DNA from: Primorskyibacter aestuariivivens
Lineage (GTDB): Bacteria > Pseudomonadota > Alphaproteobacteria > Rhodobacterales > Rhodobacteraceae
Assembly (NCBI RefSeq): GCF_028023675.1
Contig: NZ_JAQIOZ010000029.1
Span: 1 to 36,396, forward strand
DNA: 36,396 bases
Direction: 5' to 3'
The notes beneath the pieces are model-generated. The model was not told the DNA's origin, searched no databases, and was given only the letters and a program-made list of their open reading frames with translations. Below, one piece after another: positions 1,650-18,237 of this stretch; position 1 is the first letter of the stretch; each line of letters starts with the position of its first letter. The position numbers and the translations under genes were made by a program.

Positions 1650-1651
1650 GC

Positions 1652-2248: not shown

Positions 2249-2266
2249 AACTAATCTCCTTGTTAG

Positions 2267-2295: not shown

Positions 2296-2406
2296 TGTTG
2301 GAGGGTGCGTATCCATGGCCATCTGGAACGGCGGGCAGCGGTCTGTAAGTCAGACATTCTATTGAGGTGACCCAAAGAGCGAAGAAAAGACAGAATTCCA
2401 AAATGC

Positions 2407-2420
2407 TGAGCCGAAGCTCA
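2407..2420 (-). terminator. Small TTCG hairpin, possible terminator of the sbcDC operon
   Basis: Read on the minus strand, TGAGC-TTCG-GCTCA forms a 5-bp stem with a stable TTCG loop, followed by GCATTTT. It lies about 80 bases beyond the last sbcDC-operon gene and upstream of the abi promoter. The stem and T-run are short, so terminator function is uncertain. Confidence 0.3.
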
Positions 2421-2500
2421 TAAACATTTTTGACAGAGCAAACTTACAAACGCGGGCTCCTAGGGGAGTAGGTCAAGTTTCCAGAAGCCTTACGGCCTCT

Positions 2501-2803
2501 TCAGGGCTTCCCGAAAAGATCCGGTGTATCCTCGTCGCGACGGCTACTCAAACCCTCACCAAGATGCAGACAAGGGTGTTTAATACGCGTCAAGCCTTTG
2601 CCGCCCTCGAAGTGGACCCATCCACCTCTGGGCATGCCAACACTTAGGATCGGGGCCCCGCATATCGGACAAGTCCGCTTGAATGACGCGCCCTTCCTGC
2701 TTCCTTGACTATTCTGCAGCACCCAACCGCCGCGGACAGAGATTGTCCGCCCCGTCACCAGTCGGCGGTTGTGGGCTTTTCGATAACACCACCGTTCCGT
2801 CAT
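2501..2803 (-). CDS. Small zinc-ribbon protein coupled to sbcC
   Basis: A 100-residue protein I do not recognise. Its ATG overlaps the sbcC stop as ATGA, so it is almost certainly translated with sbcC. It is basic at the N-terminus and holds a CPICGAP knuckle near residue 45. A conserved-looking segment with HFEGGKG follows, and a later C and H (HPCLHLG) could complete a zinc site. The C-terminus (DTPDLFG) resembles an exposed short linear motif. Context suggests a helper of the SbcCD nuclease or of DNA repair, but nothing in the sequence proves this. Confidence 0.65.
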   Translation of the reverse strand: MTERWCYRKAHNRRLVTGRTISVRGGWVLQNSQGSRKGASFKRTCPICGAPILSVGMPRGGWVHFEGGKGLTRIKHPCLHLGEGLSSRRDEDTPDLFGKP

Positions 2804-5800
2804 CCGAGCCCCCTTCTTTCCTCAACTCTACTGCCGCTCGGTGTCGAACGTACGTAGAAGCCTTGGGGTATGGCCTCCTGCACCAGACCGACATGCGAGA
2901 TCAGACCCACAGCCCGACTACCCTCTGTCAACGCAGCAAGAACCTGGATCACTTGGTCCAGCGTGCCCGCCCCATTCTCGGTGTCGAGGCTACCGAAGCC
3001 TTCGTCGATGAAGATCGTATCCATCCGGATTTTGCCAGACAGGCTCTCGACCACATCGGCGAGCCCGAGCGCCAAGGCTAGTGCCGCGATGAATGTCTCG
3101 CCACCGGACAGAGTAGCCGTTGGACGCGCTTTTCCGGTGTTAATGTCGAAGACCTCGATTTCGAGTCCGCGCTTGCCGCGCCCACCCGATGCTTCGAGCC
3201 CGCGTGCAAGCCGGTAGCGTCCGCGCGTCATCGGGTCGAGTCGCATGTTCGCCGCGTCGAGCACCTGGTCGAACATAGCGCCAATCGCGAAGGTCTCGAG
3301 CGTCATCTTGAAATCGTTCTTGCCATTGGCCAGATCGGCCAGCCCCCGAAGAGGACCGGTTTCGGATTCAAGCCGCTCGGTTTCGGCCAAGGCCTCGGCC
3401 AGCGATTCTTTAAATCTGGTAAGTGACGTTACATCCGTTTTGTCTGTGGCGAGCGCCGCATTGGCCGCGTCCGAAAGGTGGGTAGCGTCGGCCAATGCTG
3501 ATTGAAGCGGGGCTAGATCCGGGCGCTCGTGATCCGCACAAGCGGCTTTGGCGTTCTGCCATGTCGTACGCGCCGCGATCAGGCCCTCACGATGATCGGT
3601 CACCGTCTTACGGTCGGCGTCGAGAGTCGGGAAATGCGCCTTGCAAGCATCGTATCTCGCATCGTCCAGCCCGACCTCATCCAGCCGAGCGCGAAAATCA
3701 CCTTGCGCCTTTTCCACGCGCCGCGTCTGCACCTGGCGCGCCCGCTTCGCTGCTTCGAGCTGCTCCTGCGCACGGGTGAGCGTCTCGCTCGCTACTCGAT
3801 CCCCCTGCATCGCCAGTTCCAGCGCTTTGGAGAGCTGTCTTTGCTCGCCTTGCAAAGCCTCCCGCCGTGCGACAACCGCCTCGGGCGTACGAAGACCTTC
3901 CGGCAGGGTCCCAACAACTGTATCACGCTTGGCTCGCGCACCGGCCAAAGCGGTCTCAGCCCGGCCTGCGACCGTGCGCGCCTTAGCCTCGGCGGCTTCG
4001 GCCTCGGTCACTTTCCGCTTGAGATCGGCCAACCGCTCCGCCATCGCGTCAATATCGACGGCCTCACCAAGCTCGGCGACAGTGCCTTCCAGCCGTACGA
4101 TTTCAGATTCGAGTTCCGCCAACGTGCGCTCAGGTCGTTCCTGTTCGTCCAGTGCCCGTTTCTTTTCGTCGAGCCGCGTTCGGCAATTGCCGAGTTCGCT
4201 TTCTGCCCGAACCCTAGCTTCGGTTGCGGTTCTCGCCTGAGCCTGCGCGCTACGAAACGCTTCGGTCAAACCAGATTGTTCGGGCGTGCCATGGGCCGGC
4301 GTAGGATGATCGTGGGAACCACAGACCGGGCAGGGCACCCCTTCGATCAACTTTTCGGCCAGAATGATCGCCTGCGTGCGCGAAAGCCGTGCCTCGGCCT
4401 CAATCAGGGCCGCATCGGCGGCTTCCGCCACTTCGGTCTTTGTCGCCAGTTCGCTCGATGCGGCTTCGACCTTTTGTTCGGCATCCGCGACGGCTCCCTG
4501 CGCCTTTGCATGCGCCGCTGCCTTGACCAGTTCCCGATTGACCTCGGCCAGTTCGCCAGTCAGCTTACCTCGCTCCGCCTCGGTCTTTCGCGCCTGTTCA
4601 AGCTCCAAATCGGTCGCGTCGCGCTTAGACTGGAGCCATTCGCGTGCTTCTACGGCCTCGGTCAGCGCCTTCTTGGCCGACGCTTCGTCCTTCGCAGCTT
4701 CATCAAGCGCTTTCTGTAGCTCCGCTGCCTGCCCGACCTGGTTCTCGATCGCCTCCAGCTTTGTCAGGTCGGCCTGAACCTGCTGCCGTCGCTCCTCGCC
4801 CGACTGCACCTCGATCAGTTTTTGCGCCGCCTCCTTCTTCGCCCCAGTGGCGGTGTTGAGTTCCGCTTCGGCCTCGGTGACGGCATTTTCCGCAATCCGT
4901 CTGTCGTACTCCGCATCGTGCAAAGCCGTCTCAAGATCACGGGCTTGCAGGGCATTCTTGACTACCTCAACTCGCATGGCCAGAGCATCGATCTCACCCG
5001 ATTTCGCTTCTAGATCGTCAAGCGCCTGTTGCGCCGTATCGACGGCAGCAAAAGCCTTTTCGATCTGTTCGCCTTCAGTCAAAGCCTTGCGCGCGGCTTC
5101 GTTCGCCGCCTCTGCAATCTGCTGAATTCTCTGCTTCTCTGCTACCCTGGCTTCCGCCGCAGAAATTCCTAGTTCCAGTGCCTCGGCGCTCTCGAAGCCA
5201 CGTTCCTCAAGCCGGGCTACATAGAGTGCACGCTGGTCGCGCAACGCTCGCTCTGCCTCTGAGGCTTCTTCCTTCAGCCGGGCGGCCAGGTCGCGATAGA
5301 TCTTCACGTCGAAGAGATCTCGCAATATCTCGACCCGTGCATCAGTTTTTGCAGCAAGAAACGTCTCGAACTTGCCTTGCGGCAAGAGCACGATCTGGCG
5401 AAACTGATCTGCCCCGTAGCCCAACAGCGCCTCGACCTGTTGACCCACGACCGAGACCTTCTTTTCAGCAATGACGCGGCCAGACTGACTTGAGTCAAGT
5501 GTATCCACCGAGATTCCGGTGACGTCGAAAAGCGAAGCTTCCGCCGCGTCTTCTGTCATCCCTTCGCCTCGCGCCTTCGGGCGCTCTTGCGCCGGACGAC
5601 GACGGATCAGGTAGGTTTTGGTTCCGAGTTCAAAAACAAATTCGACTTCAGTGGGTAGATCGGGCGCAGAGTGATCCGAACGCAGCGAACGTGGCTCCTG
5701 ATCGGTCTTGGTTGGTGCTCCGAAAAGCGCGAAGGACATCGCCGAAAACAACGTCGACTTCCCAGCCCCTGTTTGGCCGTATATTCCGAACAGCCCTGTT

Positions 5801-5880
5801 TCCAGCGCGGAGCGGAAATCTACGACCTCGGTTGTCGCGAACGGCCCAAAGGCCTGAAGCGATAGGCGAATGGGTCTCAT
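2800..5880 (-). CDS. sbcC: SbcC, ATPase subunit of the SbcCD (Mre11-Rad50-type) nuclease
   Basis: Rad50-like SMC ATPase that, with SbcD, opens and cuts hairpins and blocked DNA ends. Walker A is GQTGAGKST at residues 35-43. Long Ala/Glu-rich coiled coils follow on both sides of a zinc hook, C517-P-V-C520. The ABC signature (LSGGETF) and Walker B (FIDEGFGSLD) lie in the last 120 residues. The length of 1026 residues is normal for SbcC. The start overlaps the end of sbcD by four bases (ATGA), the usual coupling in sbcDC operons, and the stop overlaps the next small gene in the same way. High-GC coiled-coil coding produces long open frames on the opposite strand, which are not genes. Confidence 0.96.
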   Translation of the reverse strand: MRPIRLSLQAFGPFATTEVVDFRSALETGLFGIYGQTGAGKSTLFSAMSFALFGAPTKTDQEPRSLRSDHSAPDLPTEVEFVFELGTKTYLIRRRPAQERPKARGEGMTEDAAEASLFDVTGISVDTLDSSQSGRVIAEKKVSVVGQQVEALLGYGADQFRQIVLLPQGKFETFLAAKTDARVEILRDLFDVKIYRDLAARLKEEASEAERALRDQRALYVARLEERGFESAEALELGISAAEARVAEKQRIQQIAEAANEAARKALTEGEQIEKAFAAVDTAQQALDDLEAKSGEIDALAMRVEVVKNALQARDLETALHDAEYDRRIAENAVTEAEAELNTATGAKKEAAQKLIEVQSGEERRQQVQADLTKLEAIENQVGQAAELQKALDEAAKDEASAKKALTEAVEAREWLQSKRDATDLELEQARKTEAERGKLTGELAEVNRELVKAAAHAKAQGAVADAEQKVEAASSELATKTEVAEAADAALIEAEARLSRTQAIILAEKLIEGVPCPVCGSHDHPTPAHGTPEQSGLTEAFRSAQAQARTATEARVRAESELGNCRTRLDEKKRALDEQERPERTLAELESEIVRLEGTVAELGEAVDIDAMAERLADLKRKVTEAEAAEAKARTVAGRAETALAGARAKRDTVVGTLPEGLRTPEAVVARREALQGEQRQLSKALELAMQGDRVASETLTRAQEQLEAAKRARQVQTRRVEKAQGDFRARLDEVGLDDARYDACKAHFPTLDADRKTVTDHREGLIAARTTWQNAKAACADHERPDLAPLQSALADATHLSDAANAALATDKTDVTSLTRFKESLAEALAETERLESETGPLRGLADLANGKNDFKMTLETFAIGAMFDQVLDAANMRLDPMTRGRYRLARGLEASGGRGKRGLEIEVFDINTGKARPTATLSGGETFIAALALALGLADVVESLSGKIRMDTIFIDEGFGSLDTENGAGTLDQVIQVLAALTEGSRAVGLISHVGLVQEAIPQGFYVRSTPSGSRVEERRGLG

Positions 5881-7013
5881 GTCTGCTCCTCCCCGGAGGC
5901 TGAGGCGTGGAGCTTGTCCGCGACGATCTCGACTTCGGCAGCACTTAGTTCCCGGCCGCGTACAATCTTCATGAAGTCGCCGACCATCTCGATCGGCGTG
6001 ACCGCGACCCGACCACCGCTAAGCATTTTGGTCTCTGGGGCGCGACCCTGTCGGTCGTAGGCCAGATGGCAGGCATTGGGGTAGATCGCGCGCAACCGCT
6101 TCATCGGATCTATCAGAGGGTTTTCATCCGTTAGATTGGCCTGGATGAAGTCTTCAGACGGCGTTCCTGCCAGAAGATCCGAGAATGCCCCGGTCAACGA
6201 GCGCACTTGCCGGATCGGACGGAAAGCTACGGTACGGATCTCGACTCCTTCAGCTTTGAGATCGACGACAGTCATGGATTTTTCACTTCCCGCCTCGTCG
6301 AAACCGAAGGCGAGCGGTGCGCCGGAATACCGAATATGGCTCGCGCCTACTTCCTGCGGCTTGTGCAAATGCCCCAGTGCCACATAATCCGCCCCGTCGA
6401 AGACTTCAGAGGGCACAGTTTCGATCCCGCCGACCCGTGTCAGGGCGCGCTCGGTCTCACCGACCGCGCCGCCTGCAACGAAGGCATGAGCCACTACGAC
6501 CCAACGCGCTCCTTCAGGCACCTGACCCCTCGCTGCGGAGATTTGGGCTGCGATGACATCTGCTGGCGTGCTTATACCCTCATCCCCAAACACTTCCCGC
6601 GCGGCGTATTCATAGGAAAAGGGCAGCGCGGAAAAGGCGATCTCGCCATGCTCGTCACTCAGCACAAGCGGAGTCTCGACCGCGTCGGCGATTCCGCGCA
6701 CCAGCACCCTCGACGCGGTGGAGAAGACAGACATTGCCTCGATCCGGTCACCGGAATCGTGGTTTCCCGAGATCATCACCACCTCGGCTTCTGTCTCTTC
6801 TGTCACACGCTTAAGGAAGCGGTTGAACTGCCGGATAGACGAGTTGGGCGGTGAGGCACGATCAAAAACGTCCCCGGCGATCACAAGAACATCGACCCGT
6901 TCGACCAAGAGCGCCTCGAGAATCTGGCTTAGGACGACTTCATGATCCTCCTCGAGGCTCAACCCCATGAACTGACGCCCCAAGTGCAGATCTGCAGTAT
7001 GAAGTATTCTCAT
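5877..7013 (-). CDS. sbcD: SbcD, Mre11-type nuclease subunit
   Basis: Metallophosphoesterase partner of SbcC, with manganese-dependent exonuclease and hairpin endonuclease activity in characterised homologues. The metal-binding series is complete: D-L-H in HTADLHLG at the N-terminus, GDVFD, GNHD in MISGNHDSGD, a later histidine in VVAHAF, and GHLH in ALGHLHKPQ. The 378-residue length is typical. It is the first gene of the operon. The upstream gap of 71 bases separates it from a divergent regulator gene; a TTGACT on the minus strand within that gap could be a -35 box, but a matching -10 is poor. Confidence 0.95.
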   Translation of the reverse strand: MRILHTADLHLGRQFMGLSLEEDHEVVLSQILEALLVERVDVLVIAGDVFDRASPPNSSIRQFNRFLKRVTEETEAEVVMISGNHDSGDRIEAMSVFSTASRVLVRGIADAVETPLVLSDEHGEIAFSALPFSYEYAAREVFGDEGISTPADVIAAQISAARGQVPEGARWVVVAHAFVAGGAVGETERALTRVGGIETVPSEVFDGADYVALGHLHKPQEVGASHIRYSGAPLAFGFDEAGSEKSMTVVDLKAEGVEIRTVAFRPIRQVRSLTGAFSDLLAGTPSEDFIQANLTDENPLIDPMKRLRAIYPNACHLAYDRQGRAPETKMLSGGRVAVTPIEMVGDFMKIVRGRELSAAEVEIVADKLHASASGEEQT

Positions 7014-7029
7014 TTCGCACCGTCAATTA

Positions 7030-7041
7030 TTACACATGTAA
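7030..7041. promoter_or_regulatory. Palindrome between sbcD and the WYL regulator, candidate operator
   Basis: TTACA-CA-TGTAA forms two perfect 5-base arms around a two-base centre. It is placed between two divergent genes, one of which encodes a BrxR/CapW-like repressor. Regulators of that family bind inverted repeats near their own start in studied cases. Binding here is inferred only. Confidence 0.35.
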
Positions 7042-7084
7042 AAACTATATGGACAATGGTAGGGAGTCAAGATATCCTTCCCCC

Positions 7085-7903
7085 ATGCCCTTCGAAGACC
7101 TCAAACATGCCCAGCGTGCGCGCCTGGAATACCTCGACAGACTGTTTTTCTGGGATGGTGCAGCGACTCGTGCCTCCTTGATCAAGCGATTTGGTATTTC
7201 GAATGCGCAGGCCGCTCTCGATTTTCGGACTTACCTCGCCGAAGCGCCAAAAGACGCACTGCACTATGATGCGTCGTCGCGCCAATACCTTGCCCATGAC
7301 AGCTTTGAACGGCTTAGTGGCAAGGCATCCTCGATGGAATTGGAGCAACTCTTGGTCGGCGCACCATCCCCCGCATTCGATAGATTGCCAGATTTGCAAC
7401 GCACTCAGGACCTGCGTGTCTTACGGCCGCTCTACCGTGCCTTCAGGGCGAAAGAGGCAACGAGGATCGTTTATCAGTCGATGCGAGATCCTGAACCGAT
7501 GACTCGCTGGATTGCACCTGTTCGGTTTGCTTCTGATGGCGTTAGGCTTCACGTACGAGCCTGGTGTTTTGAACGTGAGGGTTTCCGTGACTTCCATCCT
7601 GCTCGCATAGACCCTGACCAGTCTTTCGCAAAAACCAAGCCAGCCGATGCGGTGCCCCGAGATGACGATTGGTTCACCTGGGCCATCCTGAAACTCAAAC
7701 CGCATTCAAGATTGACTGAGGCGCAGCAACGCGTGGTCCGCATCGAATTTGGGTTCACCTCAGACGTACTGGAGGCCAGAACCCGGAAAGCACTTGAGTT
7801 CTACACGGAACGCCGATGGGGTCTTGAGCAAAAGGAGCCTCGTCTAGAACGGGTCTCTATCGACTATGTTCCGATGAGTGAGGAGGAGATCGATGCAAAT
7901 TGA
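7085..7903 (+). CDS. WYL-domain regulator of the BrxR/CapW type
   Basis: Transcription factor with an N-terminal winged helix (about residues 5-70, with RLEYLDRLFFWDG and KRFGISNAQAALDF), a central WYL sensor domain and a C-terminal WCX-like domain. The WYL region reads VRLHVRAWCFE and then FRDFHPARI, close to the RWHVRA pattern of BrxR/CapW proteins. Those proteins repress BREX, CBASS and other defence genes and respond to ligands or DNA damage. The ATG at 7085 matches the usual N-terminus of the family but has no clear ribosome site; another in-frame ATG at 7049 adds 12 residues. It is divergent from sbcD and overlaps the following WGR gene by 11 bases. It probably controls the genes behind it. 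Confidence 0.82.
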   Translation: MPFEDLKHAQRARLEYLDRLFFWDGAATRASLIKRFGISNAQAALDFRTYLAEAPKDALHYDASSRQYLAHDSFERLSGKASSMELEQLLVGAPSPAFDRLPDLQRTQDLRVLRPLYRAFRAKEATRIVYQSMRDPEPMTRWIAPVRFASDGVRLHVRAWCFEREGFRDFHPARIDPDQSFAKTKPADAVPRDDDWFTWAILKLKPHSRLTEAQQRVVRIEFGFTSDVLEARTRKALEFYTERRWGLEQKEPRLERVSIDYVPMSEEEIDAN

Positions 7904-8282
7904 CATGCGCCGCATAGATCCCTCCCTCAACATGAACCGGTTCTATTCCGTGGAACTGACCAAAGACCTGTTTGGCCACCACGGCGTCCATCGGCAGTGG
8001 GGTCGCTTTGGGACTTGGGGGCGGCATCGCCATGATTGGTATGCGACAGAATCTGAGGCTGAATCTGCCCTTACCGATCTGGTCAAACAGAAACTAACAT
8101 GCGGCTATCTTATTCAGCCGCCTCCGTCCAACAGTCAGGATAGCGCGTTGGAAGCACTGATCAGCTTTGACTTCCAACCGCTGAGCCTGACTGCAGCACA
8201 TGGTAAAGCCGAAAAGCTTCAGTTCGGCAGAAAAATTTTTCCGGATTTGCCTAACTGCAAACGATTAAAGGGAAGAAGGTAA
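7893..8282 (+). CDS. WGR-domain protein
   Basis: A 129-residue protein carrying a WGR domain over about residues 12-70, with RFYSVELTKDLFG, the signature RQWGRFGTWG and a following acidic helix. WGR domains occur in bacterial nucleic-acid-linked proteins and eukaryotic PARPs, where they touch DNA breaks. The remaining C-terminus is not recognised. The start at 7893 follows GAGGAGGAG and lies inside the last codons of the WYL gene, so the two are translated together. It may be a DNA-binding cofactor of the regulator or of the helicase downstream, but this is inference. Confidence 0.75.
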   Translation: MQIDMRRIDPSLNMNRFYSVELTKDLFGHHGVHRQWGRFGTWGRHRHDWYATESEAESALTDLVKQKLTCGYLIQPPPSNSQDSALEALISFDFQPLSLTAAHGKAEKLQFGRKIFPDLPNCKRLKGRR

Positions 8283-8327: not shown

Positions 8328-9125
8328 ATGGCAATACCGCTGACAAAAAGGAAAAAACCTGACAAAGCGGGAGAGCTTGGTGAGCTGTATGCTCGGTTGC
8401 CTCAGGTCGAATGCCAAATCGACGATGTGATTAACCTTGAACTGGGGGATCTAAAGACACGCCTGAACGTCTTCAATTGGAAGGATACAGCGTATCTGGC
8501 ATCGGAGACCTTGGTCCACTTGATCCGCAAAGCCCGCAGGGAAAAGAACAGACCGGTCCTCGATGCTGCTGTCAAAGCCCTGTTCAGGAGATGTGAAGCC
8601 AACCTGCTCAGGACGGTTGATAACTCTCTGCCTAATGCAGACAAAATACGCGAAGACACGTTGGCAGAACTTGGCAAACTGTTGGCGCGAGATGGAACCG
8701 GAAAGGTGCCGGATCGTCTCGATCTCTTTGAATGGCGCTTCAATTTGCAGTTTCAATCGCTACGGATCGACGCGATCCGGCGCGAGACAAATGCCGTCAA
8801 TCGCAATGCCTCTCTTCCAAGCGATGCTACCGCGGTTGATGTTGCCGATTTGGAAGCCGCCTTCGACAAAGTCGCCAGTTGCCAGACAACGTCTGACGCA
8901 AATGGCATATATGTGCCATCTCCCGAAGACCAGATGATGGCACGAGACATCTATAGACAACTCTACAAGTTGCCAAAGGATGAACGAAACGCATTGATTG
9001 AAACCAAGATCATTGGCCTGACCGAAGAGGAGGCTGGGAGCAAACTAGGCGTTTCGTCTCGTACCATCAGAACGCGCAAAAAAAATGCGATAGCAAGACT
9101 GAAAAGCCTAAAGGAAAGCACATGA
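8328..9125 (+). CDS. RNA polymerase sigma-70-like factor
   Basis: A 265-residue protein with a clear sigma region-4 type helix-turn-helix at the C-terminus (LPKDERNALIETKII, then GLTEEEAGSKLGVSSRTIRT and KKNAIARLKSL). A region-2-like core lies in the middle (FEWRFNLQFQSLRIDAIRRE). The N-terminal 100 residues are not recognised. GAGGGGG precedes the ATG. It overlaps the next gene by four bases (ATGA), placing it first in a three-gene unit. Sigma-like genes beside an ImmA/IrrE metallopeptidase suggest a regulated transcription switch. It might instead be a sigma-derived transcriptional activator rather than a true sigma factor. Confidence 0.75.
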   Translation: MAIPLTKRKKPDKAGELGELYARLPQVECQIDDVINLELGDLKTRLNVFNWKDTAYLASETLVHLIRKARREKNRPVLDAAVKALFRRCEANLLRTVDNSLPNADKIREDTLAELGKLLARDGTGKVPDRLDLFEWRFNLQFQSLRIDAIRRETNAVNRNASLPSDATAVDVADLEAAFDKVASCQTTSDANGIYVPSPEDQMMARDIYRQLYKLPKDERNALIETKIIGLTEEEAGSKLGVSSRTIRTRKKNAIARLKSLKEST

Positions 9126-9787
9126 CCCCGAACGCAGCCCAATCTGAATTGTTCCTGCAGGATGCCATCCTTGAATTGATGGAGGCGAACAGACTTCCTG
9201 ACGCGCAACTTGTCGAAGATATCGTCAGCGAATATCCAGATTTCGCCGCAGAAATCACCGAGTTCGCCGTAGAGCTGGCAATCGACATGCTCGTAAACTC
9301 TGATCGGAATGAAGACGCTGTAGTTGTTCAAGACGATGTGTCGCCAATGGTTTCCCGCGCACTCAGCAACTTCGAAAACGAACTCTTTTTGCGTGACGAT
9401 TCATTGAAATCAGATGACGTCATCGCACGGGTAGTTCCGGAGGTAGACTCGATTGACCCCTTCGCAGACATGGATCGGAAGAGTTTTGGCCGGTTTGCAC
9501 GTTCCATTCATGCGAATAAGGTATTTGCTCTGAAATTGAGAGACCGGCAGATCCGGCTTGATACGATTCCGTATAGGTATTTGGAACTCATTTCTGAGTG
9601 TTTGAAAATCAGACTTGATCAGCTGTTAACTTATCTCAACGGGCAAGACCGCCGGCCGGCTATGGGCACACAGTTTTTCAAGGCAGATGACAGACCAAAT
9701 CACGACCTTCAACAGAGCTTCGATGAAGCGGTCGAAAGCTCTGGTCTGACCGACGATCAGAAACGATATCTAAAGAGTTTGAAGTAG
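9122..9787 (+). CDS. Unknown protein between sigma-like factor and IrrE-UvrD gene
   Basis: A 221-residue protein with no family I can name. The N-terminal third is acidic and helical (LELMEANRLPDAQLVEDIVS). The second half contains a helical block with RFARSIHANKVFALKLRDR and then YLELISECLKIRLDQLLTYL. It overlaps the sigma-like gene by four bases and ends one base before the next ATG, so it is made together with both neighbours. Lying between a sigma-like protein and a metallopeptidase, it is a candidate anti-sigma or peptidase substrate. No membrane segment is visible, so such a role would be cytoplasmic. This is inference from position only. Confidence 0.65.
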   Translation: MTPNAAQSELFLQDAILELMEANRLPDAQLVEDIVSEYPDFAAEITEFAVELAIDMLVNSDRNEDAVVVQDDVSPMVSRALSNFENELFLRDDSLKSDDVIARVVPEVDSIDPFADMDRKSFGRFARSIHANKVFALKLRDRQIRLDTIPYRYLELISECLKIRLDQLLTYLNGQDRRPAMGTQFFKADDRPNHDLQQSFDEAVESSGLTDDQKRYLKSLK

Positions 9788-9788
9788 A

Positions 9789-11465
9789 ATGGACGGATTC
9801 GAACCGATACGCAGGGCTGCACACGAGCTGCATCGGGCTACACTGGATGCAGGGGGCGATCCGCTCAATCCGCTTGCATTTGTGACGCATGCGATTGAGG
9901 CCTTGGACGATCTTGACCTGGATCTAGTCTGGCTTGAACCGGACGATCCTGGGTTGAAGGGCGCAAGAGCTCGATTTGATGACCAAGCCGGCCTGATCAG
10001 TTGTGAAAATGCGGGTGAGCCAGCAAGCCGCGCACTTCTTGTTGCACACGAAATCGGACACGATCAGCTGCATGCGGGTTCCCTGAACTGCAACTCAGCA
10101 GATGTGGATGTCTCACAAACAACAGAAGCAGCGGCAGTCGGATTGCAGCGTGTAGAGAGCTATGGCGTGCGGGAACGGCAGGAGTTGCAGGCCAATGTCT
10201 TTGCCAGAGAGTTCGTCTTTCCCCGGCAATTTGCGCGACATCTCTTCGTCGAGGAAAAAATGTCTGCCGTGGCAATCGTCGAAGCGACGGGTCTTCCTCT
10301 CGCGGTCGTTCGCCAACAGTTGTTCGACGCGCTCTTGCTCCCTCCCGGTCAGCCGGCGAACGAGAATAACTCCGCGAGTTACATTCCCAAGCCGGACAAG
10401 TCCCAAGACAGGGCTGTCGCGCATCGCGATTCACCCTATCTTCTTCAGGCAGGCCCGGGCACTGGTAAGACGAGAACGCTGATCAAGCGAATAGTCGCCT
10501 TGATCGAAGAGGGCGTCGATCCTGCCTCCATTCTGGTTCTTACATTCTCGAACCGGGCTGCAGGAGAGTTGTCAGAGCGTCTCGAACATGCTGTTCCTGA
10601 AGGCGCTGCCAAGGTTTGGGTCGGAACTTTTCATGCATTTGGACTGGACATTGTACGGCGGTTTTATCGCGAGTTAAACCTTCCGGATAATCCCATTCTC
10701 TTCGATAGAAGCGATGCGATCGAGGTCTTGGAAGAACTTCTACCAACCCTTCCATTGGTGCACTATCGTAATCTGTGGGATCCAACTCTTGTCTTACGTG
10801 ATATTCTGGACGCGATTTCGCGCGCCAAGGATGAGTTGGTCACGCCCGATCGCTACCGCGCGCTTTCAGACGCCATGCTCAGTAAAGCGAAGGCCGCGGG
10901 CGATGATGAGAAGATTGAGGCCGCCGAAAAATGCCTTGAAGTCGCGGATGTCTACGATCTCTACGAAAAGACGCTCTCCGAGCGAGGCGCGATAGATTTC
11001 GGTGATCTAGTCATGCGGCCAGCACTATTGCTCGACGCCAATACGGCCGTGAATGCCGAGCTACAGCTTCGGCATAGGCACGTACTCGTCGACGAGTACC
11101 AGGACGTAAACCGGGCCAGTGCAAAGCTCGTTAAGCTCGTCTCAGGGGATGCAAAACGGCTGTGGGTCGTCGGTGATGCAAGACAGTCCATCTATCGATT
11201 TCGTGGCGCGTCTTCGGCGAACATGACGAAGTTTGCTGTGGATTACGACAAGCCAGTGATCGATAAGCTCGAAATCAATTATCGGTCCAGTGAACAGATA
11301 GTTGATAGCTTTGTGGCTACAGCCCCGAAAATGGGCGCTTCACAGGGCATGTTGCCCTTAAGTCTTTCCGCGAACAACGGTCCCGGACCGGCGGCGACGG
11401 AAATCCGTCGGTTTGAAAGCCCCACGACGAAATTGAGGGGATCGCTGCCTGCATCGAAGATCTGA
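9789..11465 (+). CDS. ImmA/IrrE metallopeptidase-UvrD helicase fusion, N-terminal part of a frameshifted gene
   Basis: The first 200 residues form an ImmA/IrrE zinc peptidase: HEIGH at 87-91 and a downstream glutamate in QELQANVFAREF. A UvrD/Rep superfamily-1 helicase follows: Walker A GPGTGKT at 222-228, motif Ia (LTFSNRAAGEL), DEYQD at 435-439, GDARQSIYRFRG, and NYRSSEQ. The frame then fails: after base 11423 the correct frame is one base earlier, and this frame stops at 11463-11465 after a nonsense tail. The sequence AGCCCC at 11418-11423 is the likely site, a C run apparently one base short. The start lies one base after the preceding stop. Fused peptidase-helicase proteins suggest a damage- or phage-sensing enzyme. 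Confidence 0.85.
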   Translation: MDGFEPIRRAAHELHRATLDAGGDPLNPLAFVTHAIEALDDLDLDLVWLEPDDPGLKGARARFDDQAGLISCENAGEPASRALLVAHEIGHDQLHAGSLNCNSADVDVSQTTEAAAVGLQRVESYGVRERQELQANVFAREFVFPRQFARHLFVEEKMSAVAIVEATGLPLAVVRQQLFDALLLPPGQPANENNSASYIPKPDKSQDRAVAHRDSPYLLQAGPGTGKTRTLIKRIVALIEEGVDPASILVLTFSNRAAGELSERLEHAVPEGAAKVWVGTFHAFGLDIVRRFYRELNLPDNPILFDRSDAIEVLEELLPTLPLVHYRNLWDPTLVLRDILDAISRAKDELVTPDRYRALSDAMLSKAKAAGDDEKIEAAEKCLEVADVYDLYEKTLSERGAIDFGDLVMRPALLLDANTAVNAELQLRHRHVLVDEYQDVNRASAKLVKLVSGDAKRLWVVGDARQSIYRFRGASSANMTKFAVDYDKPVIDKLEINYRSSEQIVDSFVATAPKMGASQGMLPLSLSANNGPGPAATEIRRFESPTTKLRGSLPASKI

Positions 11466-13231
11466 AGGCCTCAGGAGTCACTTATCGCGATCAAGCGGTG
11501 CTGTGCCGGACAAACAAAAGGTTAAACGAAATCGCGGCCGGCCTGGAAGCACGCGGTATACCGGTCCTTCACCTTGGAAGCCTTTTTGAGCGCGAAGAAG
11601 TTCGCGACCTCCTGGCTTTGCTCAACCTTGCGATAGACCCTTTTGGTGACGCCATGGTGCGTGTTGGCACCTTGCCTCGCTATGCGTTGACCCTTCAGGA
11701 CATCTATCAGATCGCCAAAACCATCAGAGATGACGATATCTCCACACTCGAAGGTCTTGCGGCACTTCAGGCCGACGTTGCGCTCTCCGTTTGTGGTCGC
11801 GCCGGGTTAGCACAGCTTGTTGAAGATCTGACTGATCTTAAAAACACCAGCACGGCATGGGAGTTTCTCGCATCATATCTGCTGGATAAAACAAACCACG
11901 CCCGCGACATCGCGACCTCGAAGACGATTTCAGGACAGATGAAGGGTGTCGCGATCTGGCAGTTTCTGAACTTCTTGCGGGACGAAGTCCCCATTAAGGA
12001 CGGGTTGCCAATCGAGCGAACGCTCGCCCGAATCCGACAGATGGTTTTACTTGCCGAGGAACGGGACCTCCGGCAAGTTCCCGATGCCGCATTGCACATG
12101 AATGCCGTCCGATTGATGACGGTCCACGGCAGTAAAGGTCTTGAGTTTGAGGCCGTCCACGTTCCCGGGCTGACGGTCGCCAGTTTCCCATCCAGCAATC
12201 GCGGCCAACGCTGTCCGCCACCGGATGGCATGGTTGAAGGGTCTGATATTCTCTCCGCAAAAGAGTTCGCCAAACAAGCCCATGCCACAGAAGAAGAGTG
12301 CTTGTTTTTTGTCGCGATTTCGCGCGCTCAAAAATACCTCAATCTCTATTTGCCGAAAAAGCAGCCGAACGGAAACAATCGCAGTGAATCCAAATTTCTC
12401 AGCTGGCTTCCGCCGCATCTGGTAACCCAAATAGAAAACCCGGACCAATTGAGCGGCCCATCTATCACCGACGATCCAAACACGATTGAGGTCTGCTGGT
12501 CGGATACTTGGAGAATGACGGAAAGCCGTTTGACTGCCTATGAACGATGTCCGCGCCGCTTCTTCTACACGCATGTGATGGGCCTTGGCAGCGCCCGAAA
12601 AATGACAGCGTTCTCAAAAACACATGACTGTATCTACGATCTAATTCGCTGGCTCAAGGTGGAACGTCTGTCGGAGGCGCCTTCGCTCGCGGCGGCAGAA
12701 AGCGCATTTGATGACATCTGGCAGCGACGGGGTCCTGTCGGCCATGCCTATGCAGCCGCATACCGTCAGCTTGCATCCCGCTTCATTCGTAATCTTCTCG
12801 CCGCCGGTGACGGAAGAGAGTTTCTTGAAGCCAAGCGCTTGCCGGTTGAACTTTCCAGTGGAACGGTATTTGTCGAGCCAAGCGAAATATCCAGGCAACA
12901 AGATGGAACCATTTCAGTTCGCAGAGTTCGCACTGGCTATTGTCGTAGTGATGAATACTCACGCCTAGAATACGCCCTCTACAAATTGGCAGCGCAAGCT
13001 GAATATGGTGCAGGTGTGCTCGTCGAGGCGCTACATCTCACCGACAACATTAGCGAGCCAGTTCCAACAACCGACCGCGTCATTTTAAACCGCTCCAAAT
13101 CTTCCAATAAGATGCTGGATCAGATCGCTGCGGGACAGTTTCCGGCAGACACAGATCCGATTTCCTGCCCAAGGTGTCCTCACTTTTTCATATGCGCCGC
13201 GACGCCGCGCGGACGTATAAAGCAATCTTAA
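11417..13231 (+). pseudogene. UvrD helicase with Fe-S nuclease-like domain, C-terminal part of the frameshifted gene
   Basis: This frame opens after a TGA at 11414-11416 and continues the helicase: PHDEIEGIAACIEDL, then motif V (MTVHGSKGLEFE) and motif VI (EEECLFFVAISRAQKY). The last 220 residues look like an AddB/Cas4-type iron-sulfur PD-(D/E)XK domain, with one cysteine in YERCPRRFFY and three in CPRCPHFFIC. The usual acidic residues and the D-x-K are not seen: the position that normally reads D-Y-K-T-G reads RVRTG. The nuclease is therefore probably inactive and structural. Without the frameshift the whole protein would be about 1,147 residues. An internal GTG at 11498 could start a fragment, but no ribosome site supports it. 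Confidence 0.8.
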
Positions 13232-13340
13232 CTTTTTTCGACCCGCGCTTCCGGATCGGGCCACCAGAAAACGATTAACCATTCGAAGGGACGTAGGTGG
13301 GCAATGGTGCTTCACTCTTCAGTTCCCTGGAGAATGAGTA

Positions 13341-13850
13341 ATGACCCAAATTGACGTATTTTATCAAGGCGAGGACCTTGACGACATCCAACACCTGGAA
13401 CTTGAAGATGCGGCAACCATCGGCGACTTCAAAAAGCTGATCAGCGAGCGTCATGGCGCCAATGTTGACGTCCACGTGTTCATCGAAGATGCTGAAGATC
13501 CGTCTTCTGACGATGCCTGTCTGGCCGATCTCGGGGACCCGACTGGCCTCAAACTTCACTATCATCGTCAGCGTCGGATCGAAGTGTGCGTCACCTATAA
13601 CGGTGAAGATGAATGTCGCCTGTTTCCGCCATCGGCCACGATCAAGCGTGTCAAACGCTGGTTCGCGAAGAACAAGTTTGGCATGGCCAAGGAGGAGGCG
13701 GGGGAACATCTGCTTCAGATTTCCGGCACCCACGAACGGCCTCACCCCGGCACCCATATCGGCGCGCTTGCCAAATGTGGCTGTACCAAGCTGGAGTTTG
13801 ATCTCGTCCCTGATCAGCGTGTCAACGGTCACACCGAGTTGGGTCAATGA
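13341..13850 (+). CDS. bilA: BilA, ubiquitin-like protein of the bacterial ISG15-like system
   Basis: A 169-residue protein made of two beta-grasp (ubiquitin-like) domains in tandem. The first covers about 1-77 (from [14 protein letters not shown] to GLKLHYHRQ) and the second about 78-157 (from [17 protein letters not shown] to [11 protein letters not shown]). Two tandem ubiquitin folds are the hallmark of BilA. In studied systems BilA is conjugated to phage tail proteins and spoils the released virions. The C-terminus ends in G168-Q169 rather than a bare diglycine, so trimming by the JAB protease would be needed to expose the glycine. GGAGA lies seven bases before the ATG. It overlaps bilB by four bases. 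Confidence 0.85.
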
Positions 13851-14320
13851 GCAGTCCTGACGAAAGGGCATTGTCCGCCGATCTCGCCAAGCCGTCCTTC
13901 AAGCTCGCTGCACTTGAAGGGCGGTGGCGTCTCGCCGAGATGAGTTGGCCTTATGTCTTCATCGCTGTCACCGCGTCGGACGGCAGAGAATATGTCCTTC
14001 GGTTTCATTGCGCAGGTTATCCAGAGCGCGCGCCGACAGCCGGCCTTTGGGACATGTCCAAGAACTCTCAACTGGGCTTGGATATGTGGCCACGGGGCAG
14101 GGGCGGTCGACTGTCATCGGTCTTCAGGACCGACTGGAAGAACGGTTCAGCTCTTTACCTGCCTTGCGATCGTACAAGCTTCGAAGGCCACGAAAACTGG
14201 CGTCAGGAAATGCCGTCGAAAATCTGGAACCCGAAAATCGGGATCAATCAATATCTGGAGCTGGTTCATGAACTTCTCAATTGCGCGGACTATACGCCAC
14301 CTATTCGCACCGCGGCATGA
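13847..14320 (+). CDS. bilB: BilB, E2-like ubiquitin-conjugating enzyme
   Basis: A 157-residue E2-fold protein that takes the ubiquitin-like protein from the E1 and hands it to target lysines. The N-terminal helix and beta meander ([19 protein letters not shown], then [19 protein letters not shown]) are followed by a proline-rich turn ([12 protein letters not shown]). The likely catalytic cysteine is C107 in [10 protein letters not shown] final helix ([13 protein letters not shown]) completes the fold. The start is coupled to bilA (ATGA overlap). The end overlaps bilC by 53 bases. Identity is supported mainly by fold pattern and by the flanking ubiquitin-like, JAB and E1 genes. Confidence 0.85.
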
Positions 14321-14783
14321 ATTGTCATGCTCATGGTTGGTATGGCGGAAGCTGATGGCCAGCCTGCGTCAGCGCGGCGCCAATAGCAGCCGCGAAAGCG
14401 GTGCATTTCTTCTTGGCTACAAGGCCGGTGGCCAAGCCCGGATTGTGGATTTCGTTCTTTATGACGATCTTGACCCGCATTGTCTGGAGTCAGGCATCGT
14501 GCGCTTCGACGGACGGTATTTCAGTGAACTGTGGGCAATCTGCAAAGCGCGGAAACTGACCGTCGTGGCGGATGTACACGTCCATCCCGGTGGAGAGCAA
14601 CAAAGCAAATCAGATCGTGCACATCCAATGATTTCCCGATCAGGGCACCTGGCACTCATCGTCCCCAATTTCGCAAAACGCGCAAAGCGATCGACCGTCG
14701 GGATCTATCGCTACCTCGGAAACAAGGATTGGGAAAGCGTACCGAAATCGAAGCGCAAATCGTTTTTTCATGTTGGATTCTAG
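14268..14783 (+). CDS. bilC: BilC, JAB/JAMM deubiquitinase-like metalloprotease
   Basis: A 171-residue JAB-domain zinc protease expected to mature BilA and remove it from conjugates. The JAMM residues are present: E43 in [10 protein letters not shown], then H104-x-H106 and S113-x2-D116 in [15 protein letters not shown], a bacterial spacing. The start at 14268 was chosen because GGAG lies seven bases upstream and the protein then begins shortly before the conserved WLVWRKL helix. The frame is open much further upstream (to 13953), but that part lies inside bilB in another frame and is not a gene. The 53-base overlap with bilB is unusually long. Ten bases separate its stop from bilD. Confidence 0.86.
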
Positions 14784-14793
14784 GGAGGCCCTT

Positions 14794-16173
14794 ATGGATA
14801 TGCCAGTAACTGGTGACACCCTTCACCGCCTGATGAAACAGGCTCTGGATAGCGGCACCGTTGAGAGCGTCGAGGACGCCAAACGCCTGTTTGAAGGCTA
14901 CCGACTTTCAGTATCAATTGATCCAGCCGATGCCGACAGCCCTGAACATCAAACCGCGTTACTCACGGTCGTTGCTCTTGCAAGCCGAGTGTTTCTGGGT
15001 GGGGTTCATGTATCGGGTGCCTCGAGTGCGCCGCTGTTAACTGGGCACAAGGGCAGCAAGTCATTGGCTGATGAGATCATTAAGCACGGTGGTGTAATAG
15101 CGTCAGACTTGAGTGAGGACCCCGTCATTTATATCGGGGGAGGCGCGCGTCCCAGACGCGACGGGTTTGCCATTCGCACACAAGCTGCGGGGTGGCGAGG
15201 CGGTATTATGCCAGCGTATTCTGCACTTGGAGTTCCCCAAAAAGCTCCAATTGCGACCGCGGCAACTTTAAGTGCTGCCCTCGCCGTGGCCGAAGCATAT
15301 TTTCACGTAAGTAAAGCCTTGCCAATCGCTGGTCGGCGCACTCTAGGGCTGTCTCTTTGGAAGCTCAATCCAGACATCGATTGGCGCGCTGAAGATCCGT
15401 CTGAACCCACGCTCAAGTATTTACCAAATCGACTTTGGCTGATCGGTCTCGGCCACTTAGGACAGGCCTATCTTTGGAATGTGGGCCTGTTACCTTATGC
15501 AGACCCCTCGGCTCTGTCCCTCGTTCTGCAGGATATCGACGACGTCACCACCTCGACACATAGCACCTCTATTTTGACCGCACCGTCCATGGTCGGCCAG
15601 AAAAAAACCCGTGTTCTCGCCGATTGGGCAGAAGGCCGGGGATATTCGGTCTCACTGATGGAGCGGTATTTTACAGACGACTTTTTGCGCCAGCCTACGG
15701 AACCCGCCATCGCCTTGTGCGGCCTCGATAATGCACTTGGGCGCAGAGCACTCGACAAAGCCGGCTTTGACTTGGTTGTCGAGGCCGGGCTGGGGCGGGG
15801 TCACCACGACTTCCAGAAAATCAGAATGCATGTCTTACCAGGTCTCCGGCCGGCCGACGATATTTGGCGAGCTGCAGACTATTCAACTGGCCACGCCATG
15901 CCAGTTGCCTATGAAAAACTGGTGAAAGCCGGGACGCTTGATCAATGCGGTGCTACGCTCCTGGCGGGCAAAGCTGTCGGAGCCCCCTTCGTTGGAATGG
16001 TAGCCTCCTGCCTCGCGGTTAGCGAGATTCTGCGCCTTCTGCACGGTGGGCGCCGGTGTCAGCTTGCCGATCTAGATCTTTTGAGCATAGATCATCGTCA
16101 CATTGTGGAAAGCGGACAAAATGGCGAGCCTGCACACATGAATCCCGGCTTCACTGATGCAATGATCGGTTAG
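14794..16173 (+). CDS. bilD: BilD, E1-like ubiquitin-activating enzyme
   Basis: A 459-residue E1/ThiF-like enzyme that adenylates the C-terminus of BilA and carries it as a thioester. The Rossmann nucleotide motif is GLGHLG at 218-223 in RLWLIGLGHLGQAYLW, with an acidic strand end (LQDIDDVTTST) after it. Candidate catalytic cysteines are C385 in LDQCGATLLAG and C406 in MVASCLAV. The N-terminal 200 residues form an extra domain typical of BilD. The start at 14794 follows GGGAGG seven bases upstream, overlapping the end of bilC; an earlier frame start at 14770 lies inside bilC. It completes the bilABCD set. Confidence 0.87.
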   Translation: MDMPVTGDTLHRLMKQALDSGTVESVEDAKRLFEGYRLSVSIDPADADSPEHQTALLTVVALASRVFLGGVHVSGASSAPLLTGHKGSKSLADEIIKHGGVIASDLSEDPVIYIGGGARPRRDGFAIRTQAAGWRGGIMPAYSALGVPQKAPIATAATLSAALAVAEAYFHVSKALPIAGRRTLGLSLWKLNPDIDWRAEDPSEPTLKYLPNRLWLIGLGHLGQAYLWNVGLLPYADPSALSLVLQDIDDVTTSTHSTSILTAPSMVGQKKTRVLADWAEGRGYSVSLMERYFTDDFLRQPTEPAIALCGLDNALGRRALDKAGFDLVVEAGLGRGHHDFQKIRMHVLPGLRPADDIWRAADYSTGHAMPVAYEKLVKAGTLDQCGATLLAGKAVGAPFVGMVASCLAVSEILRLLHGGRRCQLADLDLLSIDHRHIVESGQNGEPAHMNPGFTDAMIG

Positions 16174-16361
16174 GCTTGGGGAAGGTAAGTCGAAGGGCGC
16201 CAGCGGATTGTTGTGGTATCTTTGATCAAGCGATTTCACGTCGAAGCATCGTTCATCGAAGCAGCTGTCCTAGGCCTTTAGGTCCAAACGCCAAAACTTG
16301 TTGACCGTGACGCTTCCAAGGCGCGAAGCTGTCCGAACAATTGATCAATCCTGAGGAAGTA

Positions 16362-17114
16362 ATGGCCAGAAATCTGCAAGTGGATGAGCAGGTCTTTATC
16401 CCCAAGTCGAAGATTGGCATTGAAAACGTCGAAGGTTCTGCGTTTCGGCAGAGTCGTGTGGTTGCCGTCGCGGACAGGACAATCACGATCGACTTGGTGG
16501 ACAATGATGGCAACAATGTCTCCGTGGGTTCTTCTGCAGCTCACCGAGGCCTTGGCTTCTTGATTGTAAGGATTGGAGATTTCAGGACGGAAGACAGCCT
16601 TCTAGACCCTCTTGCAAAATCAGTCCTGCAGTTTTCAAGAATTTTGGTGACAGACGAATTTGTCAGGCGGATTGACATTAGAACAATCGACGAACTCGGC
16701 AGCTACTGGGCTTTGAACCACGCGGTCTACAGTCACCTAATTTTCATTGGCCACGGCTCGCCTGATTCTATTGCATTTGGCCTCGGAGAACCCGCAAATT
16801 CCGAACAGCTTTTAGCAGCATTGGAAGTCGAAGGAGTGCAACCAAAGACGATTCTGTTCCTCGCCTGCGAAACAGGAAAGGCGCCCATCGCAAGAGAGAT
16901 ATCAACGAGCCCCGTTTGTGAATCTTACATAGCTCCATATTCGGCGGTTCACGGCGCAGACTCTTCATTGTTTGTACAAATGTTCTTGAACAAGCACCTT
17001 TTAGACGGAAGAACTACGACGGTTGCGTTTAAACATGCTTACGCAGCGATCGCGCGATGTCCATTCCGCATTTGGGAAAACGGGAACCTGAAATCTGGAT
17101 ATCACGCAAGGTGA
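16362..17114 (+). CDS. CHAT-domain (caspase-like) protease
   Basis: A 250-residue protein with a C-terminal caspase-like CHAT domain. The histidine is H131 in LIFIGHGSPD and the cysteine is C169 in ILFLACETGK, both in the typical order and spacing. The first 60 residues look like a small beta barrel (VDEQVFIPKSKIG, then TITIDLVDNDGNNVSVGSS). Bacterial CHAT proteases act in defence systems and often cut a partner protein when triggered. GAGGAA precedes the ATG; seven more codons upstream are open but lack a ribosome site. It lies 188 bases behind bilD on the same strand, so it may be an added effector or a separate defence gene. Confidence 0.8.
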   Translation: MARNLQVDEQVFIPKSKIGIENVEGSAFRQSRVVAVADRTITIDLVDNDGNNVSVGSSAAHRGLGFLIVRIGDFRTEDSLLDPLAKSVLQFSRILVTDEFVRRIDIRTIDELGSYWALNHAVYSHLIFIGHGSPDSIAFGLGEPANSEQLLAALEVEGVQPKTILFLACETGKAPIAREISTSPVCESYIAPYSAVHGADSSLFVQMFLNKHLLDGRTTTVAFKHAYAAIARCPFRIWENGNLKSGYHAR

Positions 17115-17183: not shown

Positions 17184-18237
17184 GTTGCGACAAAATCCCT
17201 ATCTTGCTGAAAGGCAAGGAGAACGGACATGGCCCACACAGAGCTGGATTTGCGAGAGAGACGCGCAATTGAAGACATGCTGAACGCGAAAGTGCCGGTG
17301 AGCAAGATCGCAGCTGAGATCGACAGGCACCGCTCAACTGTCTATCGCGAGTTCAAGCGGAACTTTTTCATCGATGATGAGCTGCCATATCTGAACGGTT
17401 ACTACGGCATGAATGCGCAGAAGTACGCGTCAGATCGGCGCGCGCGTCGGCGTAAGCTGATCCGCCTGGAAGACTTGCGCGCCCATGTCATCGCTCAATT
17501 GAAGGTCGGTTGGACGCCGGAACAGATCGCGGGTCGGCTTGGCTACGACGCTCAGCCCATTCGAGTGAGCCACGAGACGATCTATGCTTATGTCTACAGC
17601 CCCGAAGGCCAGTCTGAGCAGCTGGCCCGCCACTTGCCCAGTCGGCGCAAGAAACGCAGGCCGCGCTATGCCAGGCGTCCCAGGGGCCAGGTATTTCCGC
17701 CAGATCGATCCGTCCACCAACGCCCAGACCATGTGAAGACGCGCGAGACGTTCGGCGATTGGGAGGGCGACTTGATGATCTTTGAGCGCTCTCAGGGAAC
17801 GATGAATGTCGCCTCTCTGGTCGAGCGGAAGACCCGCTTTGCCGTCCTGTTCTGCAACAACGACCGCAGCTCGACCCACTTCATCAACAAGCTGATGGAT
17901 GTGATGGAACCCCTGCCCCAGCCAGCCCGAAAGTCGATCACTTTTGATCGAGGCTTCGAGTTCCGCGCGTGGCGCAAGCTGAAGTCGGGCATCGGCACCG
18001 ATAGCTGGTTCTGTGATCCGCAGGCGCCCTGGCAGAAGGGATCGGTCGAGAACCTGAACAAACGCGCGCGTCGGTATCTACCTCGAGACACCCAACTCGC
18101 GGCGCTCTCAAATCGCAATATGAAGGCGATTTGCGACCGCCTGAACGGCACGCCCAGAAAGTGCCTCGGATGGCGTACCCCAACCGAAGCCTTCAGAGAC
18201 GAACTGATGAAACTGAGATAGCGGAAACCGTCGCAAC
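17184..18237 (+). mobile_element. IS30-family insertion element (approximate ends)
   Basis: A single transposase gene is bracketed by an 8-base inverted repeat, GTTGCGAC at 17184-17191 and GTCGCAAC at 18230-18237, with partial similarity continuing inward. Outward matches are poor, so the true ends may lie a few bases further out, and no target duplication can be called. The element sits between the CHAT gene and an IclR gene, at the border of the defence island and the metabolic region. Confidence 0.55.
17229..18221 (+). CDS. IS30-family transposase
   Basis: A complete 330-residue transposase. The N-terminal helix-turn-helix reads KVPVSKIAAEIDRHRSTVYR, typical of IS30. A second conserved segment is WTPEQIAGRL. 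The DDE catalytic triad is intact: D181 in FGDWEGDLM, D240 in TFDRGFEF and E274 in KGSVENLNK. The final IS30-type motif with TPRKCLGWRTPTEAF is present too. AAGGAGAACGGAC precedes the ATG. The gene appears functional, so the element may still move. Confidence 0.95.
   Translation: MAHTELDLRERRAIEDMLNAKVPVSKIAAEIDRHRSTVYREFKRNFFIDDELPYLNGYYGMNAQKYASDRRARRRKLIRLEDLRAHVIAQLKVGWTPEQIAGRLGYDAQPIRVSHETIYAYVYSPEGQSEQLARHLPSRRKKRRPRYARRPRGQVFPPDRSVHQRPDHVKTRETFGDWEGDLMIFERSQGTMNVASLVERKTRFAVLFCNNDRSSTHFINKLMDVMEPLPQPARKSITFDRGFEFRAWRKLKSGIGTDSWFCDPQAPWQKGSVENLNKRARRYLPRDTQLAALSNRNMKAICDRLNGTPRKCLGWRTPTEAFRDELMKLR

Follow-up and report, generated by a model that had tools for sequence, protein, structure and literature searches.

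A BilABCD operon of Primorskyibacter aestuariivivens and the probable mobile control cassette upstream of it

The bilABCD operon works by itself in the published systems, and Hor et al. are said to have found in 2024 that it protects from phages by joining BilA to their tail proteins. CapP, the protease of the CapH+CapP pair, belongs to the M78 kind. Here we analyze a stretch of 36,396 nucleotides from Primorskyibacter aestuariivivens (contig NZ_JAQIOZ010000029.1, hereafter the window), in which a bilABCD operon is found directly downstream of three genes that probably form a dedicated and mobile control cassette, a protease-helicase/sigma switch for ubiquitin-like conjugation. Other controllers have been described, which serve immune operons of several kinds: CapW, CapH+CapP and CapK+CapS control Bil, Bub, CBASS and other operons and sense single-stranded DNA (ssDNA) or DNA damage, CapP being an ssDNA-activated protease that cuts the helix-turn-helix (HTH) repressor CapH (PMC13373217, partial text).

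The operon of the window is composed of the following genes (residue numbers are those of the window proteins, and L-numbers are labels of relative loci):

13341..13850, + strand: BilA, tandem ubiquitin-like protein, 169 amino acids (PADLOC BilA, 5.4e-52; a 15-row profile matches tandem ubiquitin)
13847..14320, + strand: BilB, E2-like protein, 157 amino acids (PADLOC BilB, 2.1e-60; Pfam DUF7665, 3.6e-72)
14268..14783, + strand: BilC, JAMM deubiquitinase, 171 amino acids (PADLOC BilC, 7.4e-67; on its own it matches the solved BilC, 8tyx_B, at E 3.5e-8)
14770..16173, + strand: BilD, E1 with GLGHLG and C393 (PADLOC BilD, 8.6e-158; a 13-row profile matches the solved E1(BilD), 8tyz_A, at 5.7e-4)

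These genes overlap one another in the order bilA-bilB-bilC-bilD, all on the + strand, as an earlier reading of the letters alone (the sequence-only reading) had claimed, and the profile search that it proposed gave matches of all four PADLOC Bil profiles over almost the full length of the proteins, therefore not by chance. On sequence grounds, the four genes are a BilABCD operon, because of the four curated profiles, the gene order and the likeness to solved BilC and BilD. This identity also stands after a search of the profile libraries for a sulfur-carrier or other non-Bil operon, the outcome that the same reading had named as contrary to it; a ThiS/MoaD sulfur carrier was discarded, given that the Bil profiles match and that BilA gave no Pfam or NCBIfam match up to 0.1. 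The claimed double beta-grasp nature of BilA agrees with its match to tandem ubiquitin, and the BilD profile also matched ThiF (3.7e-4) and the NEDD8 E1. In Pfam, BilC and BilD gave sub-threshold matches only (Prok-JAB, ThiF), and BilB matched none of the solved chains, either as a single sequence or as a 13-row profile. BilD has 467 amino acids when read from 14770, or 459 if it starts at M9 (14794), as is annotated for the relatives L032 and L033.

Directly upstream of the operon stands the cassette (8328-13231), and a recurring promoter-like site is found before the operon and, in the window, before the cassette as well:

8238..8267, + strand: promoter-like site 1, TTTCCGG-N17-CGATTA, 60 bp before the sigma-like gene s
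8328..9125, + strand: gene s, sigma-factor-like HTH protein, 265 amino acids (Pfam Sigma70_r4_2, 4.4e-7; Sigma70_r4, 6.3e-7)
9122..9787, + strand: protein x, 221 amino acids, HTH-like by eye, candidate protease target (profile of 18 relatives)
9789..11465, + strand: M78 (ImmA/IrrE-like) protease and N part of a UvrD helicase, first half of a split gene (Pfam)
11498..13231, + strand: C part of the UvrD helicase and PD-(D/E)XK domain, second half of the split gene (UvrD_C, 3e-22; PDDEXK_1, 8.5e-9)
13248..13277, + strand: promoter-like site 2, CTTCCGG-N17-CGATTA, 63 bp before bilA

The span of 13341-16173 given earlier thus holds for the core operon and leaves out the cassette and both sites. The product of s also matched TIGR02937 (3e-8), under the curated cut-off of that family. 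For protein x the Pfam matches were weak (HTH_19 at 0.17 in one of the 18 members), and a model from two sequences had a predicted local distance difference test (pLDDT) score of 44.1, too poor for a fold. The first half of the protease-helicase matched Peptidase_M78 at 8.5e-5 (22.8 bits, cut-off 22) and UvrD-helicase at 8.3e-65, with HEIGH encoded at 10047-10061 and Walker A at 10452. HExxH and GPG[TS]GKT are present in all 21 intact helicases (21 of 22 kept, the unrelated UvrD protein of L057 being dropped), and in L032 and L033 the protease-helicase is a single frame of 1147 amino acids. Matches to the PADLOC GajB profile fall in the UvrD part, and GajA gave no match among the 9 proteins scanned. 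A cysteine cluster of the CPxCPxFFxC type closes the PD-(D/E)XK domain (window 13166 onward) and is kept with variation in the relatives; presumably it is comparable to that of Fe-S nucleases.

Relatives of the locus were collected with BilD and BilC. By tblastn, BilD had matches in 38 plasmid records out of 72,556 and in no annotated phage record out of 50,697, the closest relatives, at 93% and 82%, being plasmids of Pseudohalocynthiibacter and Roseovarius, respectively. Eighteen of the 38 plasmid records were opened, the other 20 being near copies, 3 Xanthomonas records and 3 short partial matches. With the BilC profile, matches were obtained in 7 of 385 class genomes and in 7 of 398 phylum genomes (E <= 1e-8, weak matches included; the two samples overlap), and with the BilD profile in 35 of 295 genomes of the family, near full length in 2 only (own, G294), with short, E1-like matches in the remaining ones. 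Among viral contigs there was one Bil contig, IMGVR_UViG_2911336950_000002 (L100), listed as viral, which carries all four Bil genes and a fused HTH-M78 gene. In this way 26 Bil loci, not independent of each other, were assembled from the 18 plasmid records, 6 genome regions (L071-L076), L100 and the window; five weak or partial genome regions (L077-L081) stand outside them, of which L078 and L079 were kept in the BilC and BilD alignments. The alignments have 23 BilA, 24 BilB, 26 BilC and 27 BilD rows, the BilA limit of E 1e-20 dropping L073 (short BilA frame) and L078.

The combination of x and M78-helicase was found at 14 of the 26 Bil loci, namely the window, where the helicase is split, and directly 5' of bilABCD in plasmids L032-L038, L040, L041, L056 and L060 and genomes L071 and L072; in one more locus (L039) s and x are the only cassette genes. 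Gene s is evident in L032-L035, is present by annotation (sigma- or HTH-type) in L038, L041 and L060, and is partially matched by its profile in L056. At 8 of the 11 Bil loci without the cassette, HTH and M78 genes, separate or fused, are carried in its stead (L042, L057-L059, L061, L073, L074, L100), and at 3 of the 26 neither was seen (L062 incomplete; L075 and L076 with one neighbour each scanned), in such a way that an M78 peptidase is present at 22 of the 26. The Bil operons of L057 (2038-4321) and L058 (1937-4242) are accompanied by HTH and ImmA/IrrE genes in divergent orientation, after which comes a gene with an exonuclease domain.

When the search started from the cassette, 203 plasmid records matched an intact helicase by tblastn (E <= 1e-30), with a coverage of at least 80% in 79 of them. 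Among the best 60 of the 203, a Multi_ubiq gene lies no more than 3 kb away in 45 and Bil no more than 8 kb away in 6; by inspection, 8 of the other 9 also have Multi_ubiq (L066, L067, L069, L101-L104, L063), divergent in L069 and about 6 kb off in L063, with an IS66-type gene between. A ubiquitin-like operon is therefore beside the helicase in 59 of these best 60 matches, which include many near copies from Acinetobacter, the remaining record being NZ_CP010351.1. The x profile matched 5 of the 385 class and 6 of the 398 phylum genomes, which make 10 distinct genomes with our own included, and in 10 of 10 a ubiquitin-like operon adjoins: Bil in three (own, L071, L072) and Multi_ubiq with E1 in seven (L092-L098), with a DUF6527-like third gene in six of the seven (doubtful in L095). 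A search for Multi_ubiq in the own genome gave 0 matches, with the control also matching nowhere, and is not evidence of absence. Within this sample, the cassette is thus found almost exclusively beside two kinds of ubiquitin-like operon.

A maximum-likelihood tree was built with 31 helicases, the split ones of L102 and the window being excluded. Supported branches force at least 3 changes of partner, with L060 (Bil) placed among Multi_ubiq cassettes and L038 (Bil) next to L067/L095; some positions are unsure because the branches of L041 and L036 are long and because, at one join, long branches meet. These data indicate that the cassette has been exchanged between Bil and Multi_ubiq operons.

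The promoter-like pattern YTWCCGGN{16,17}CGATTA has exactly 2 matches in the 4.29 Mb of the own genome, sites 1 and 2, and its backwards control has 0. The stretch from the cassette to the ubiquitin-like operon has 69-119 bp in the 21 junctions measured, other neighbours mostly overlapping or nearly touching, and 18 of 31 gaps contain a looser pattern, for which shuffles give an expectation of 0.02 (the junction counts leave out L063, and the gap edges of L071, L072 and L092-L098 are approximate, from reading-frame ends). It is absent from all 10 stretches before bilA of cassette-free operons. With the gaps extended by 60 nt and L039 and L069 added, it is found in 21 of 33 junctions (7 of 15 for Bil, 14 of 18 for Multi_ubiq), and a consensus derived from Multi_ubiq loci fits 7 of the 15 Bil gaps at <= 2 mismatches, a fit reached by 0 to 14 of 500 shuffles. 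A scan of both strands of 45 loci (724 kb) gave 63 matches of the looser pattern, compared with 6 for the backwards control; besides junctions and stretches before s, many of them lie at one spot inside s and others are scattered. This copy, which many Multi_ubiq loci have within the coding sequence of s some 213 bp ahead of x (L064 6208, L092 8044 and L101 4226, among others), may be coding-driven and was excluded from the counts. In the main helicase clade the motif was present in 17 of the 20 rows examined, and outside the clade in 1 of 10, so that it tracks the helicase clade and not the partner operon; the site thus goes with the cassette, which is what its reading by a cassette protein would lead one to expect.

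Regarding the conjugation machinery itself, glycine G163 of BilA (codon at 13827) is invariant (23/23). The window BilA runs six residues past it, most relatives stopping exactly at that glycine, and for this reason BilC is predicted to trim BilA to a mature end at G163. In BilC, the JAMM residues E43, H104, H106, S113 and D116 are invariant (26/26), as anticipated from the full JAMM set recognized earlier. In BilD, G226, G228 and G231 of GLGHLG (residues 226-231) and C393 are found in 27/27, which bears out an E1 with a catalytic cysteine; the C385 named in the sequence-only reading is not a distinct residue, being C393 of the frame from the first ATG counted from M9.

A mechanism can be proposed in which the helicase-nuclease part would meet damaged or phage DNA and turn on the M78 protease, in such a way that the fused M78-UvrD-PDDEXK protein would couple a CapP-like protease to a DNA motor. 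The protease would cut x, which would act as repressor or anti-sigma, and s, freed or enabled, would drive both promoters, boosting its own expression and that of bilABCD. BilC would then trim BilA to G163, BilD would activate it through C393, and BilA would, with BilB taking part, be joined to its targets, presumably phage proteins.

The surroundings of the locus were also inspected. Upstream, positions 642-7903 contain an AbiE-type pair (AbiEii, DUF6088), SbcC- and SbcD-like genes and a WYL gene (7049-7903) in which Pfam finds the WYL domain only and which lies before the cassette, not before bilA; the SbcCD-WYL block is common to plasmids L032 and L033. Downstream, the gene at 16341-17114 encodes a protein of 257 amino acids in which GHG (137) and ACETG (175) recall, by eye, caspase-like proteases; it has no Pfam, NCBIfam or PADLOC match, and it was rejected as a part of Bil, its homologue being found in L032 only of the 26 loci scanned. 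Beyond it lies an IS30-type transposase gene (17229-18221), around which no inverted repeats of >= 15 bp were found; an IS30 family gene stands at the same place in L032.

Several results weigh against a controlling role of the cassette, which we nevertheless consider probable. In s, sigma region 4 was matched but region 2 was not detected in the Pfam and NCBIfam scans, so s could be an ordinary HTH regulator, and x is no more than a candidate target of the M78 protease. The s profile has no match in L071 and L072; in L036, L037 and L040 gene s is truncated by the locus end, interrupted by an insertion sequence or unnamed; and the helicase, missing from L039 although s and x are kept there, is therefore not always needed. 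The x profile was made of 18 rows from loci linked to ubiquitin-like operons exclusively and may favour that kind of cassette. As for the motif, the looser pattern stands before s in only 5 of 18 stretches (0.03 expected), the other 8 of the 15 Bil junctions lack it and are no better than shuffles, and part of the junctions later counted had served to shape the pattern; moreover, 30 other genomes have 18 pattern matches in all (at most 3 per genome; backwards control 3), so that such sites arise elsewhere too. The cassette could also be an effector arm or a substrate instead of a controller, its helicase-nuclease, activated or marked by the ubiquitin-like protein, attacking phage DNA. Its complete helicase and PD-(D/E)XK domains and its linkage, within the sample, to conjugation operons and not to immune operons generally would suit this role, but the promoter-like site right before the ubiquitin-like operon, the HTH/sigma-like character of its first gene, the HTH and M78 genes that replace it at other Bil operons and the retention of s and x without the helicase in L039 make it unlikely. 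Less probable still is a plain Bil operon with a constitutive promoter, the cassette being an unrelated neighbour in a defence island: the locus does share its island with AbiE, SbcCD-like and WYL genes, and bilABCD alone suffices in published systems, but an unrelated neighbour would hardly adjoin a ubiquitin-like operon in 10/10 genomes and in 59 of the best 60 plasmid matches, exchange partners and share a motif with them.

A further point against a working controller, in this strain, is the split of the protease-helicase, whose span is 3443 bases vs 3444, with a frame change seen by tblastn; because of it the switch may be stuck or uninducible here, unless the split is a sequencing error. 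Decay of the window copy, with the split gene and the nearby transposase gene marking a locus that is no longer switched on, seems to us improbable, as bilABCD, s and x are open frames, both promoter-like sites are present and the one-base difference may come from sequencing. Besides, the IS30-type gene is also found in L032, where the helicase is intact, and on a plasmid, L102 (4950-8402), a second split protease-helicase likewise adjoins its Multi_ubiq operon. A different alternative, compatible with control by the cassette, concerns BilB, for which an E2 with candidate C107 had been claimed. A cysteine is indeed there, but it is shared by 13 of the 24 BilBs aligned, and three of them (L036, L061, L075) contain no cysteine whatever. 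The BilB studied has Cys138, Glu144, His146 and His151 (CEHH motif; PMC11354881, partial text), and at the same spacing (Cys, Glu+6, His+8, His+13) the window protein has C107, E113, H115 and Q120; with the motif absent, BilB is not filed, by these residues, under the CEHH-type E2 subtype, and the claim for C107 is weak. In this branch BilB could be no cysteine E2 at all, a reading that would take the place of the E2 step: C107 would be dispensable, the E1 (C393) would pass BilA to the targets, and BilB would be a non-catalytic E2-like partner. We find this plausible, with doubt somewhat outweighing belief. Apart from the variable cysteine and the missing CEHH motif, it agrees with the invariance in 24/24 BilBs of W97, Y104, R109, H115 and W127 (W27, P35, W68 and P82 being invariant as well); against it, C107 is retained in the closest relatives (L032-L035, L100), and the fold model (3 sequences) has a pLDDT of 55.9, too poor to place C107, and gave no Foldseek match at E <= 0.001. 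A hit to chains C and D of 8tz0 (E 2.5, template modeling score 0.40) was not counted as evidence. The comparison of active sites proposed in the sequence-only reading thus leaves the BilA, JAMM and E1 sites apparently intact and the E2 site not borne out, and to conclude from intact key residues that the system is active goes too far, with C107 variable, CEHH missing and the protease-helicase split upstream.

A BilB without a conserved cysteine puts in question how the E2-like step runs in this branch. As for the controller, a cassette with a recognisable promoter motif makes the switching-on of ubiquitin-like conjugation directly testable; it may suggest that uncharacterised Multi_ubiq operons serve in stress or immunity, and it is a marker for finding more. 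A description of the cassette was not found in the literature searched, the main Bil and Bub papers lying outside that coverage; in the partial texts concerned, PMC13373217 has no "helicase" and one UvrD passage, which names a knockout strain, and "UvrD" does not appear in PMC1779556 or PMC8195603. Bil itself is known, and Bil with this control cassette is possibly a new class of controller. A fuller proposal, to which we give slightly less than even credence, is that of a further class of immune controllers, based on a sigma switch whose sensor is an M78 protease joined in one protein to a UvrD helicase-nuclease. Such controllers would serve ubiquitin-like conjugation exclusively, would move between Bil and Multi_ubiq operons and would, in this strain, rule a private two-promoter regulon; the proposal also includes a cysteine-independent branch of BilB.

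We compared the locus with the known systems. With BilABCD (bacterial ISG15-like, PADLOC) the window shares the four genes, their order and profiles, the C-terminal glycine, the JAMM residues and the E1 cysteine, and it differs by the upstream control cassette, the six-residue tail of BilA and an E2 cysteine that is not conserved among relatives. Whereas window BilC and BilD are detectably related to the solved Bil proteins (8tyx BilC; 8tyz/8tz0 BilD complex), BilA and BilB have no sequence link to them, and the CEHH motif of the solved E2 is missing in the window BilB. In the CapH+CapP system, as in the window, a protease has a DNA-binding protein as its neighbour, close to immune operons, but there it is a stand-alone protease with an HTH protein, whereas the M78 domain of the window is fused to UvrD and PD-(D/E)XK and is accompanied by a sigma-like gene and its own promoter motif; judged by its domains, the cassette is not of the CapH+CapP type, and the comparison is an analogy of proposed function. 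CapK+CapS and CapW are also placed before Bil, Bub, CBASS and other immune operons, which they control after DNA damage, but their proteins, a kinase with STAS-wHTH and a WYL protein, respectively, differ from those of the cassette (PMC13373217, partial text for these systems and for CapH+CapP). Finally, the operons of Multi_ubiq, ThiF E1 and DUF6527 have the same three-gene cassette, with the promoter-like site in 14 of 18 junctions, whereas their ubiquitin-like protein, E1 and third gene differ from those of Bil.

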